Under the pieces are notes generated by a model. It saw only the letters and a program-made list of their open reading frames with translations, searched no databases and had not been told where the DNA came from. 64,000 bases of DNA from an uncultured Selenomonadaceae bacterium (GTDB lineage Bacteria; Bacillota; Negativicutes; Selenomonadales; Selenomonadaceae): assembly GCA_902778455.1 (NCBI GenBank), contig CACYXR010000002.1, forward strand, positions 186,001 through 250,000. Reading direction: 5' to 3'. Made by a program: the position numbers and the translations under genes. Position 1 is the first letter of the stretch. The number at the start of each line of letters is the position of its first letter. Positions 37,928-42,664 of this stretch are shown in pieces.

Positions 37928-37971
37928 AAATATCCCCCATGCGCTTTTTCAGAACGTATGGGGATTTTCTT
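37928..37971. terminator. Terminator shared by the NDH-2 gene and rqcH
   Basis: ATCCCCCAT/ATGGGGAT arms (about 37932-37940 and 37958-37965) with A-rich and T-rich flanks. The rqcH stop codon is in the loop. Confidence 0.65.
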
Positions 37972-39715
37972 GCGCCAGAATTTTTTTCAGCCGTTCTTCG
38001 TCCGGTGTAACCGCGAAGGTTTTTTGGTGGGTGAAGATGACGAATCCCGGCTTTGCACCTGATGGCTTTTTTACAAAGCGACAAGGCGTACAGTCCACAG
38101 GGATATTGGATGAGCCGGAAGCTTGACTGAAATGTGCGGCGAGAGAAGCTGCAAGCAGTAACGTATCATCACTCGGCTTGATTCCGCCAGTCCGTAAGAT
38201 TACATGGGAGCCGGGAATGTCCTTGGTGTGCAGCCAAAGATCATCGCGGTCTGCAAAATGAAAGGTCAGGCGGTCGTTTTGGCTGTTATTTTTCCCGACA
38301 AAGATCTCTGTACCATCTTCGGCACGAAAATGTAATGGCTTGGAGACTTTTTCTCCAGGCTTTTTCTTTTTGTTTTCATGCAAAATCCCGGAAACAATCA
38401 ATTCTGTGCGGATATCGGCAATCTCGGAAAGCTCGGTACATGATGCAAGAGAAAACTCAATACTTTCAAGATAACATATGTTATCCTCACAAGCGGTGAT
38501 TTGCTCTGCGAGGAGCTTCTCGGCACGACGAAGCTTGCCATATTTTTTGTAATAGGCATTGATATTTTGTCGTATGGTAAGTTTACGATCAAGGGGAATA
38601 GACACGTTCTTTCCATCCTCGGCGTAGATGTTTGGAAGGGCAACCTCATCATCCTGATGATCGGAAAGTTGATGCTGATAGGTGGATAGGATATCTGCTT
38701 TTTGGCGGAATTCGTCAGCGTTTTTTGCTTCGCTGGCTTCTTCATGAAGTTTTTCCCGCTTGTTTTGCGCACGGCGAAGTTCATTTCGGATGAGTTTTTG
38801 AAACCGCTCCTTGTCAGGAGGCGAATAGCTTCCAATCAGTGAATCGGCACGAATAAGCAGCTTGCTCATGTCCGGGAAATGCTCTGCTTCAACATTGGTG
38901 AACGCGTGAAGAGGGAATGCTGCCATCGCCGTAAGTTTTCCTTTCCCGTCGCGCAATAGCACAGCTGGAAATGCCTCATTCCGTAAAGCAGCAACAGTTT
39001 CGGCAAAGGCGTTGGCAAGAGAATCAAAGTCTGCATTGTCGAGTGCTTCGACTTGAACATCGGGGGAAAGACCGGCGGAAAAAATAATCTCTTTCGCAGT
39101 AACAGGACCGAAGCCAAGGCAGACATCTGTGATGGCTTTGACGAGTTTCATTTCCTGTTTTTGGCGAAGACGTGATACAAATTCTCCCTCTGTTGATGCA
39201 AGTGCGTTCAACTTTCCACCGTCATCAGGAGGCTGATATTCGCCACCTGGCAATACGAAACGGATGCGACTTTCTGCAGCGCCGACACGGCGCAGAGCGT
39301 CGATAATTTTTCCTTCCTCTGTCAGGATGAGATTCGAATGTTTTCCCATCAGTTCAATGGCAACGGTTTTTGTGACGATGCGTCCCCCTGCGGCCAGTGT
39401 GTCCACATCAAGGAATAATACACGATCTAATCCATGTTGGCGAATAGCGGCGATTCGTCCTGCTTCCAAGTGTTTGCGAAGGAACATGCAAAAGGCGGGA
39501 GGTTCGGAAGGATTTTCAAATGGAGTGTCTGAAAGGAAGAGTGCGGGATTTTGCGGCCGCACGGACAAACACAGGCAGAGTGTTTGCCCCGGTCGTCGGA
39601 CGGAAAATTGTATTGTTGTTCGGTTAGGTTGGGTGATTTTGTCTATGCGGCTTCCCGACAATGCGGCATCCAATTCACGCGTGAGGCGATACATGGAAAA
39701 ACCGTCGAGGCTCAT
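37949..39715 (-). CDS. rqcH: Rqc2 homologue RqcH (NFACT protein)
   Basis: A 588-residue protein with NFACT-N, helix-hairpin-helix and coiled-coil middle parts and a C-terminal NFACT-R domain (DDLWLHTKDIPGSHVILRT). The DR pair needed for tRNA binding in Bacillus RqcH is at the same place (Asp97, Arg98 in GLDRVLF). RqcH binds stalled 50S-peptidyl-tRNA and adds C-terminal Ala tails for degradation. Its ATG overlaps the stop of the upstream P-type-ATPase-like gene (ATGA), and no clear ribosome site precedes it, so it depends on coupled translation. Confidence 0.94.
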   Translation of the reverse strand: MSLDGFSMYRLTRELDAALSGSRIDKITQPNRTTIQFSVRRPGQTLCLCLSVRPQNPALFLSDTPFENPSEPPAFCMFLRKHLEAGRIAAIRQHGLDRVLFLDVDTLAAGGRIVTKTVAIELMGKHSNLILTEEGKIIDALRRVGAAESRIRFVLPGGEYQPPDDGGKLNALASTEGEFVSRLRQKQEMKLVKAITDVCLGFGPVTAKEIIFSAGLSPDVQVEALDNADFDSLANAFAETVAALRNEAFPAVLLRDGKGKLTAMAAFPLHAFTNVEAEHFPDMSKLLIRADSLIGSYSPPDKERFQKLIRNELRRAQNKREKLHEEASEAKNADEFRQKADILSTYQHQLSDHQDDEVALPNIYAEDGKNVSIPLDRKLTIRQNINAYYKKYGKLRRAEKLLAEQITACEDNICYLESIEFSLASCTELSEIADIRTELIVSGILHENKKKKPGEKVSKPLHFRAEDGTEIFVGKNNSQNDRLTFHFADRDDLWLHTKDIPGSHVILRTGGIKPSDDTLLLAASLAAHFSQASGSSNIPVDCTPCRFVKKPSGAKPGFVIFTHQKTFAVTPDEERLKKILAQENPHTF

Positions 39716-41610
39716 GGGGTATCATCTCTTTTCTTTATTACTGTGTTCTCCGACTGTGTGGAATAATATTCTCGTCCAACACGGACGGCGTTCAGTATAG
39801 CGACAAGAAGACCGGGGAAGGAAGCGAGCGCGACGAGCCAAGGAGCGGGGAAGAGTGGACTTCCCAGTGTGACAAAGAGACCGGAGGAAACAGGTAAAGC
39901 CAGCAGTGGACCAAAAAACGACGCCACAGTGTTTTGGCGGGCTGTGGAATGGATTTTTTTCAGAAGTGAATGAGCTGAGGGCAAAACCACGAGGCTTTTG
40001 ACAACCAGTGCCGGAAGAACCGAAATTGATTTTGGCTCGGCGTCTTGATCTGTGGTCGGCTCGGCTTCAATAAGAATTTCTGGGACATTTGATACTTCTT
40101 TTTGCCTAGGATCCTCTTTTTCAATCATAGGCAGAATGGGACAGTCTGCTTGTTTTAGGGCGAGATTGTCCTCGGAAAGGTTCGCGAAAAGTGCAACGTT
40201 TTTCCCGTGCGCTTGCAAAAGCTGGATTTCTCGGACGAGATCAGATGCACGGATACTGTGGCGATAATTCGGAATTCCGAGACGCTTGGCAACGGTTTTC
40301 GCTGTACGTGTACCTTCACCAATCATCAGAATTGTCTCGATGCCTTGTTTTTCAAGTTCACGAACCGTTTCTGCCGTCTCAGTGTTCAATTCATATTCAT
40401 AAGCGATAATACCTTTTGCGTTTTTTCCATTGCTGACATAAAGGATAGTTTTTCCTTTTTCTGCAAGCTGATCGTCCTTCGTCAACAAGTTTGCACTAAT
40501 GCGGACACCTTGGGATTCAATCCATTCCTTCCGGCCAACGCGAATAGGCGCGCCATTCATCAAGACTTCCGCCCCCTCACCGGGAGATTCGTTGAAGGCG
40601 GCAATACGTCCGTATTTTGCGCGAAGCCGGATTGCATGTTCAGAAATTACTTTTGCAATTGGATGACGTGACCCGGATTCAGCGGCGGCAGCGAGAGACA
40701 TGAAGGCAGTCATCGTTATGCCCTCAGGTACAAGATCAGTAATCTGCGGTTCACCTTCCGTCAGGATGTCTGACTTGCCAAGTACGAGCGTATCAGACAA
40801 GGCGACGGTCTCCACCGCACGAAAACTGCGAAGGGATACACATTGTTCCACAAGAAATACAGATCCAATCCATAGAGGAACGGCTTCTGCTAAGGGAAGA
40901 ATACAGGGCGTCGCGGAAAGCAATACAAACAGAGAAAAAGAAATCGTGAAGGGCAGAGAAACACCGAGCAATAGCCAAACAAGACCGCACAGAAAGGCGA
41001 ACACTAGAAAGAAGTTTGCCGCATAGCCGGAAAAGGGAACGAGGGATTGATAAATTTCTTCCTCACGCATCTGTTTTCTGGAATTTTCGACACGAGATAA
41101 CATAATAGCAGCATGAGCACGGAGAAAATCCCCTAAAGCGAAAAAGAGTGTCCAGAAACCGATGAGATGAAAGTAGGAGGGGAAAATTGGTTCCAAAGGA
41201 GCGTGAGAAAAGGCGTCGAAAGTGAATAGTGCACTCATTGCGCTCGCATACAACGGACTTTGAGCGAACCATGTCGCTGATTGATTTAAAATGAGCGGAA
41301 GAACGCCGAACATGAATGCGATTCCTATGGAAACGGCAATCATTGAATCTGAGCCGGGGCGACGATTACGAATTTGTGCAAAGCCGCGCAGGAAAATCGG
41401 ATAATGGACAATGACCAGCAAAATAGCAAAAACAAACTCCAAAAACGAGGCGTGATTTTCGAGAAACGCAAATGTTTCTGTCCAGTTCGGCGCATAGAGC
41501 CGCGACCAATTGAACAGGAATGGCAACGCAGCACTGGAGAACAGCGCTGCAAGCAACGGGATGGAAATCAAGAGGCGTATCAACGATTTCATATATGCAG
41601 AATGCTTCAT
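39712..41610 (-). CDS. Degenerate P1B-type-ATPase-like membrane protein (probable pseudoenzyme)
   Basis: A 632-residue protein built like a heavy-metal P-type ATPase but without its catalytic parts. Membrane helices cover about residues 10-110, 145-165 and 198-250; ATPCILPL (233-240) replaces the CPC metal motif. The phosphorylation segment reads SDTLVLGKSDILTEGEP (272-288), so the Asp of DKTGTLTEG is Gly278. HPIAK (316-320) is kept. TGD is MIGEGTRTA (429-437), and GDGxNDAPAL is FANLSEDNLALKQAD. The actuator domain with TGES is missing: LSRVENSRKQ runs into the next helix after about 20 residues. Two C-terminal helices remain (about 560-615). ATG at 41610 follows AAGGAG. A signalling, binding or scaffold role is more likely than transport. 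Confidence 0.85.
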   Translation of the reverse strand: MKHSAYMKSLIRLLISIPLLAALFSSAALPFLFNWSRLYAPNWTETFAFLENHASFLEFVFAILLVIVHYPIFLRGFAQIRNRRPGSDSMIAVSIGIAFMFGVLPLILNQSATWFAQSPLYASAMSALFTFDAFSHAPLEPIFPSYFHLIGFWTLFFALGDFLRAHAAIMLSRVENSRKQMREEEIYQSLVPFSGYAANFFLVFAFLCGLVWLLLGVSLPFTISFSLFVLLSATPCILPLAEAVPLWIGSVFLVEQCVSLRSFRAVETVALSDTLVLGKSDILTEGEPQITDLVPEGITMTAFMSLAAAAESGSRHPIAKVISEHAIRLRAKYGRIAAFNESPGEGAEVLMNGAPIRVGRKEWIESQGVRISANLLTKDDQLAEKGKTILYVSNGKNAKGIIAYEYELNTETAETVRELEKQGIETILMIGEGTRTAKTVAKRLGIPNYRHSIRASDLVREIQLLQAHGKNVALFANLSEDNLALKQADCPILPMIEKEDPRQKEVSNVPEILIEAEPTTDQDAEPKSISVLPALVVKSLVVLPSAHSLLKKIHSTARQNTVASFFGPLLALPVSSGLFVTLGSPLFPAPWLVALASFPGLLVAILNAVRVGREYYSTQSENTVIKKRDDTP

Positions 41611-41655: not shown

Positions 41656-41685
41656 ATTATGTACTTTAAAAGCAACGCTTGTCAA
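41656..41685 (-). promoter_or_regulatory. Promoter of the P-type-ATPase-like/rqcH operon
   Basis: Minus-strand TTGACA (41680-41685), 18-bp spacer, CATAAT (41656-41661). Confidence 0.6.
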
Positions 41686-41747: not shown

Positions 41748-41794
41748 ATTATAGTTTTTGTGACTAAGTGGAAAAACAATGTTGGAGTGTTTCG

Positions 41795-42664
41795 ATGGTT
41801 ACGGTAGAAGCGAATGCCAAGATTAATCTGACGCTGGATATTTTGGGCACGCGCCCGGACGGTTACCATGACGTTGAAATGGTAATGCAATCAGTGGGTC
41901 TTTCCGATATTATTTATCTGGAACGACGAGAAAAAGGCATCTCTCTTCAAATAGATGTGCCGGAATTGCCCACAGATAAAACAAATCTTGCGTGGAATGC
42001 TGCTCATTTGTTTTTGGATGTATATAAAATACAATCCGGGGTTTCCATTAAAATCAAAAAGAAAATTCCTATCGCCGCTGGATTGGCAGGAGGCTCCGCA
42101 GATGCGGCGGGGACGCTGATTGGAATGAATTCTCTTTTCGAGACAAGACTTTCGAAAAAGGAGCTTTGCAAGCTTGGCGAAAAAATCGGATCAGATGTGC
42201 CTTTTTGCATCGAAGGTGGTACGATGCTGGCGACGGGACGCGGAGAAGTCTTACGTCGCCTTCCCGATTTGCCACAATTGTTTGTTGTATTGGCAAAGCC
42301 GCCTGTTTCTGTTTCAACGGCGTGGGCATACAAAAATTATGACAAAATGGGATCTACTCGTCATCCCGATACAAACGCGATATTGTCGGCAATTACGACA
42401 GGACATGTCGAAGGAATCGAAAAAGCACTTGCAAATGTTCTTGAAGAAGCGACTATGAAAGCGTACCCGATTGTTGAAGAATATAAGCGCATATTGACAG
42501 AAAACGGCGCAACAGAAGCCTTGATGTCTGGCAGTGGTCCGACGGTTTTTGCCATTGCGAGGGAAAAAAAGGATATGGAGCATGCGGCGGCGATGCTGTC
42601 CCACGCCTATCCTGATGCGGCAATTTTTGTCGTTCCGACAGTGAAACAAAATACTATATCCTAA
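41795..42664 (+). CDS. ispE: 4-diphosphocytidyl-2-C-methyl-D-erythritol kinase
   Basis: A 289-residue GHMP kinase. AKINLTLDI at the N-terminus, the ATP loop IPIAAGLAGGSADAAG (about residues 90-105) and LMSGSGPTVFA near the C-terminus are standard for IspE. It phosphorylates CDP-methylerythritol in the MEP route to isoprenoids such as undecaprenol. ATG at 41795 has GGAG seven bases upstream; the longer frame has no family similarity. It begins a three-gene operon with a GntR regulator and glmU. Confidence 0.95.
   Translation: MVTVEANAKINLTLDILGTRPDGYHDVEMVMQSVGLSDIIYLERREKGISLQIDVPELPTDKTNLAWNAAHLFLDVYKIQSGVSIKIKKKIPIAAGLAGGSADAAGTLIGMNSLFETRLSKKELCKLGEKIGSDVPFCIEGGTMLATGRGEVLRRLPDLPQLFVVLAKPPVSVSTAWAYKNYDKMGSTRHPDTNAILSAITTGHVEGIEKALANVLEEATMKAYPIVEEYKRILTENGATEALMSGSGPTVFAIAREKKDMEHAAAMLSHAYPDAAIFVVPTVKQNTIS

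Follow-up and report, generated by a model that had tools for sequence, protein, structure and literature searches.

A putative P-type pseudo-ATPase descended from a copper pump and retained across Selenomonadaceae

P-type ATPases are usually regarded as pumps defined by a phosphorylated aspartate. What may a protein of this fold do once that residue has gone? The question is raised by psi, a gene found in a 64,000-nucleotide stretch of DNA from an uncultured Selenomonadaceae bacterium (the whole of this stretch is referred to here as the window). A preliminary description of the window proposed that psi is maintained for a non-pumping role, such as a metal or lipid sensor or a membrane scaffold. 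Pseudoenzymes such as pseudokinases have lost their catalytic residues, maintain a ligand-binding fold under selection and probably play regulatory or scaffolding roles; psi resembles the pseudokinases in that its catalytic residues are gone and a ligand-binding fold is kept under selection.

A P1B-type ATPase gene without catalytic parts

The intact 632-codon frame of the preliminary description was recovered as an open reading frame at 41610..39712 on the minus strand. The gene, its parts and its neighbours are as follows, in window coordinates.

39712..41610, minus strand: psi, pseudo-P1B-ATPase gene, 632 aa plus stop, frame uninterrupted
41086..41610, minus strand: psi aa 1–175, N-terminal membrane part (MA, MB, M1 and M2 equivalents)
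41026..41085, minus strand: psi aa 176–195, variable junction in place of the missing actuator domain and its TGES
40825..41025, minus strand: psi aa 196–262, M3–M4; TPC (aa 234–236, 40903..40911) replaces CPC
40720..40824, minus strand: psi aa 263–297, first part of the P domain; DKTGTLTEG reads GKSDILTEG, Gly278 codon at 40777..40779
40387..40719, minus strand: psi aa 298–408, N domain, the most strongly constrained part; E311, H316, G344, G346 and G359, equivalent to ATP-pocket residues, kept
40132..40386, minus strand: psi aa 409–493, second part of the P domain; TGD reads IGE, GDGxND replaced
39976..40131, minus strand: psi aa 494–545, fast-evolving loop from the P domain to M5
39775..39975, minus strand: psi aa 546–612, M5–M6 equivalents
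41656..41685, minus strand: psi promoter, TTGACA-N18-CATAAT
37949..39715, minus strand: NFACT/RqcH-like gene, downstream of psi
41768..42664, plus strand: ispE, divergent neighbour of psi and synteny anchor family-wide

The promoter and ribosome site attributed to the gene are both in place: the promoter is kept in 9/9 congeneric genomes, and AAGGAGAA lies immediately 5' of the ATG. The psi stop codon and the ATG of the NFACT/RqcH-like gene overlap by 4 bases (ATGA, 39712..39715), as they do in some congeneric genomes, which suggests translational coupling. One congeneric genome (G009, L055 7268–8241) carries ~800 additional bases, including a 196-aa frame, between psi and ispE.

The homology of the psi protein to P1B ATPases is certain: its best match is the P1B profile TIGR01525 (E 4.6e-41), and the Legionella CopA structure (LpCopA, 3rfu) aligns with it at E 1e-35, in agreement with the P1B-like order of membrane, P and N segments previously noted. 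Its NCBIfam scores are nonetheless far under the curated cut-offs (141 vs 346 bits for TIGR01525 and 91 vs 397 bits for TIGR01511).

Alignment to LpCopA and to four other P-type ATPases of the same genome (L002–L005), which have intact DKTGT and GDGxND motifs, bore out each of the catalytic losses listed in the preliminary description. The catalytic Asp of DKTGT is Gly278 (GKSDI), the CPx metal-binding motif in M4 has changed from CPC to TPC, TGD and GDGxND in the P domain read IGE and NLSED, and ~80 residues are gone at the position of the actuator domain and its TGES loop. Pfam PF00122 falls below its cut-off (17.1 vs 28.1 bits); PF00702 exceeds its own (48 vs 26.4 bits), with Gly278 at the end of strand 1, where the HAD nucleophilic Asp would be expected. 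The statement that only the HP motif survives well proved too narrow, as E311, H316-P317, G344-E-G346 and G359, that is, the HP and GxG nucleotide pocket of P1B N domains, are all present and the whole N domain is the best-preserved part of the protein. AlphaFold models computed from 4-sequence alignments reached a pLDDT of 40 for the whole protein and 41.5 for the P and N region.

With neither an aspartyl-phosphate site, nor a TGES dephosphorylation loop, nor Cu+ ligands, psi is, judging by its sequence, not a pump. It differs from P1B-1 Cu+-ATPases (CopA; TIGR01511, TIGR01525) in each of these parts, in GDGxND, in its sub-cut-off scores and in an inverted pattern of constraint, and is like them in the order of its membrane, P and N segments and in its N-domain ATP-pocket residues.

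Distribution of psi in Selenomonadaceae

Orthologues of psi with identical losses are carried by eight congeneric genomes at 62–96% identity, and a search for intact orthologues in close relatives returned none within the genus. Since the losses are common to several species and genera, both an assembly or sequencing error and recent decay were ruled out. Intact orthologues occur solely in other genera, where they mark the ancestor of psi.

At least 188 of 189 Selenomonadaceae genomes gave matches in a profile search, most of them a full-length CopA plus a single additional match. In the set of sequences fetched, 23 of 30 genera are represented by degenerate copies of ~360–756 aa, with the frame open in nearly all of these copies, and four genera (g9, g15, g23 and g24) have instead a canonical relative in which TGES, CPC and DKTGT are intact. 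Three more (g7, g10 and g22) have neither a degenerate nor a close canonical copy among the matches listed, so psi is dispensable in some relatives. The catalytic Asp persists in 1 of 65 dereplicated psi-family sequences (2%) and is missing from the other 64. Beyond the family, we searched the class (380 genomes, 191 from other families) and a phylum sample (398 genomes); at the thresholds used, every match there falls within a full-length frame of 744–849 aa, as judged by frame length.

Selection on the N domain

Estimates of dN/dS reveal purifying selection on psi, with Fisher p down to 1e-54 and a whole-gene omega of 0.14 (G000–G001), 0.13 (G006–G008) and 0.19–0.22 in wider pairs, on a par with or a little higher than that of ispE in comparable pairs (0.14–0.18). 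Omega drops to 0.04–0.08 in the N domain, which is 88–96% identical within the window genus, compared with 52–57% for the first four helices, the closest tested relative excepted. As dS in the N domain is close to that of the remaining gene, a constraint at the nucleotide level is ruled out and the constraint acts on the protein. The loop at aa 494–545 has an omega of ~0.2–0.95 (at least 0.46 in divergent pairs); it has no counterpart in canonical pumps.

This pattern is the inverse of that in real pumps. The N domain of the canonical CopA from the window genus ranks first or near first among its segments in evolutionary rate (omega 0.14–0.21), and mean pairwise identity in canonical pumps decreases from membrane (0.66–0.79) through P to N (0.39–0.50), whereas in the psi family it decreases from N (0.44) through P (0.33–0.36) to membrane (0.23–0.25). 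Residues invariant in canonical pumps are likewise retained more often in the N domain of psi than elsewhere (66% vs 36%, Mann-Whitney p 2e-5). Psi is thus kept by selection, chiefly via its N domain. The part of the preliminary description that saw a gene maintained for a non-pumping role is upheld by losses common to orthologues of 23 genera, by purifying selection and by the conserved promoter; its sensor part fared otherwise, as detailed below, and a membrane scaffold is possible.

A putative nucleotide-binding pseudo-ATPase

Loss of all pumping parts, retention by most of the family and selection on the N domain together suggest that this copper-pump descendant is a pseudoenzyme conserved for a new function other than pumping. 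The reading that we favour, by a modest measure of confidence, is that psi is a membrane-anchored pseudo-ATPase whose N domain would still bind adenine nucleotide and serve as a regulator or scaffold.

Five pocket residues support this reading: E311 is retained in 94%, H316 in 86%, G344 in 82%, G346 in 100% and G359 in 98% of the psi family, and their combined retention far exceeds that of other canonical-invariant N-domain residues (0.92 vs 0.59). They are the counterparts of E1064, H1069, G1099, G1101 and G1149 in the N domain of ATP7A/ATP7B, of which the three glycines (G344, G346 and G359 in psi) lie near ATP by NMR in ATP7B (PMC3203118). The isolated ATP7A/ATP7B N domain binds ATP in the absence of a functional P domain, with a Kd of ~50–75 uM for ATP7B (PMC3203118). 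Psi differs from it in being a membrane pseudoenzyme of bacteria that is not joined to a pump and in that the equivalents of N1150 and R1151 vary; counting against nucleotide binding, N1150 of ATP7B is Arg360 in psi and Arg315 replaces the Glu of SEHP.

These two arginines in place of canonical residues also agree with another reading, in which the N domain is a protein-interaction or scaffold module that no longer uses nucleotide binding and the pocket glycines, which may be structural rather than nucleotide-binding, are kept for folding. W363, T377, D380, Q381 and E461, conserved in 58–63 of 65 sequences and so among the best-conserved residues, are not known to be nucleotide contacts, and H316 and G344 are lost in 9/65 and 12/65 sequences, respectively. 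E461, along with D489, belongs to the second part of the P domain, where both are near-invariant across the pseudo family. The excess retention of the five pocket residues speaks against this scaffold-module alternative, which we consider possible but doubtful.

For the nucleotide-binding pseudo-ATPase, the mechanism would run as follows. The leftover transport helices would anchor psi in the membrane with the P and N domains facing the cytoplasm, and the N domain would hold ATP or ADP in its conserved pocket, which appears to us the most likely mechanism. With less confidence, we propose that the occupied or empty state of the pocket, or the N-domain surface, might then regulate or scaffold a membrane partner. 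A consistent partner was sought in the largest genus (g12) and none was found there, the flanking genes varying among its members.

Origin of the locus and decay series

A tree from which the motif columns were left out places the 65 dereplicated degenerate sequences together in a single clade (SH-aLRT 99), nested among canonical Cu+-ATPases with those of G032, G018 and G033 as successive outgroups; multiple independent origins were considered and set aside. Canonical members occupy the psi locus in two other genera: the Cu+-ATPases of G033 (L060) and G024 (L058) have all motifs, score as copper-translocating (TIGR01511, 605 and 607 bits, respectively) and are divergent from ispE, the former also being directly upstream of cydABDC. 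In many genera the degenerate copy is still flanked by ispE-gntR-glmU-prs, by cydABDC on the opposite side, or by both. One clade among canonical pumps, two of which lie at the same locus, points to one ancestral CopA-like pump that died and was kept. The simplest history would be a single ancestral locus in the Selenomonadaceae ancestor, with a CopA-like Cu+-ATPase divergent from ispE and probably upstream of cydABDC, in which phosphorylation and transport would have been lost once and the protein retained.

The neighbourhood raises the alternative that psi is a regulatory or accessory subunit for cytochrome bd biogenesis or for the remaining canonical CopA. By the listed coordinates, psi immediately precedes cydA, heading cydABDC, in 37 or more genomes spread over 8 genera, and a canonical CopA accompanies psi in most genomes among the matches listed. 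The canonical ancestor takes the same position in a ninth genus (G033, G099); the linkage over these nine genera is seen at L042, L043, L046–L049 and L060, among others. However, such linkage can descend from an ancestral copA-cyd operon, two genomes (G019 and G031) have cydA directly beside ispE with no ATPase between them, and several genera have psi without cydA. The window genus (g1) is among them: cydA (PF01654) was found in 0/11 of its genomes (G000–G010) vs 155/189 family genomes, so the partner is not exclusively cytochrome bd. A role specific to cytochrome bd, suggested by the linkage, is weakened accordingly; cytochrome bd is a historical neighbour of psi, not an obligatory partner, and we hold the accessory-subunit alternative to be unlikely.

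The extant copies form a series. In genus g6 the actuator domain is still recognisable (Pfam E 1e-27 to 1e-33), with TGES already TGKK, TGSF, TGDS or TGIK and the Asp also lost; in the window genus and several others the actuator domain is lost and the N-terminal helices are kept; in many other genera psi is a compact core of ~380–450 aa, the membrane part corresponding to aa 1–175 being missing. The data allow for a single loss of the actuator domain (AU p 0.65). This stepwise loss of segments across genera, the disappearance of the gene from three of them among the matches listed, and the split frame of one genome (G166, L148), in which a stop separates frames of 415 and 166 aa, might be taken to mean that psi is a relic pseudogene, open by chance and slowly vanishing. 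That account is very improbable and already contradicted: neither relaxed selection nor, in nearly all copies fetched, a broken frame is seen, the omega values and Fisher p given above signify purifying selection that is strongest in the N domain, the promoter is conserved, and the gene persists in 23 genera.

An ATP-independent metal channel or metal sensor, for which the homology to copper pumps and the retention of P235 in 94% of sequences could be cited, is hardly credible, as the first and second CPC cysteines (15% and 11%) and the canonical M5/M6 signature residues (0–8%) are among the least retained and the membrane part is the least conserved. With the constraint sitting on the N domain, the metal or lipid sensor of the preliminary description is not supported.

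A search of a limited, open-access body of literature turned up no P-type ATPase pseudoenzyme. We judge the chances to be about even that psi represents a previously undescribed family of P-type pseudo-ATPases, in which a Cu+ pump would have become a membrane-anchored, nucleotide-responsive regulator within a single bacterial family, with living intermediates at or near the ancestral locus. If so, the P-type fold would have been exapted as a regulator, pumping having been discarded and the N domain placed under stronger selection than in a real pump. The Selenomonadaceae series (intact, dead with the actuator domain, dead without it, compact) makes the steps of loss traceable and testable. It also calls for caution in annotation: psi-type genes score as heavy-metal ATPases or HAD hydrolases and can be neither.

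Within the window genus, the canonical copA genes (L095, L096, L099 and L100) have an interspecies dS of 0.4–0.8, with neighbouring genes at saturation in several of these pairs; canonical copA may have moved horizontally within this genus.
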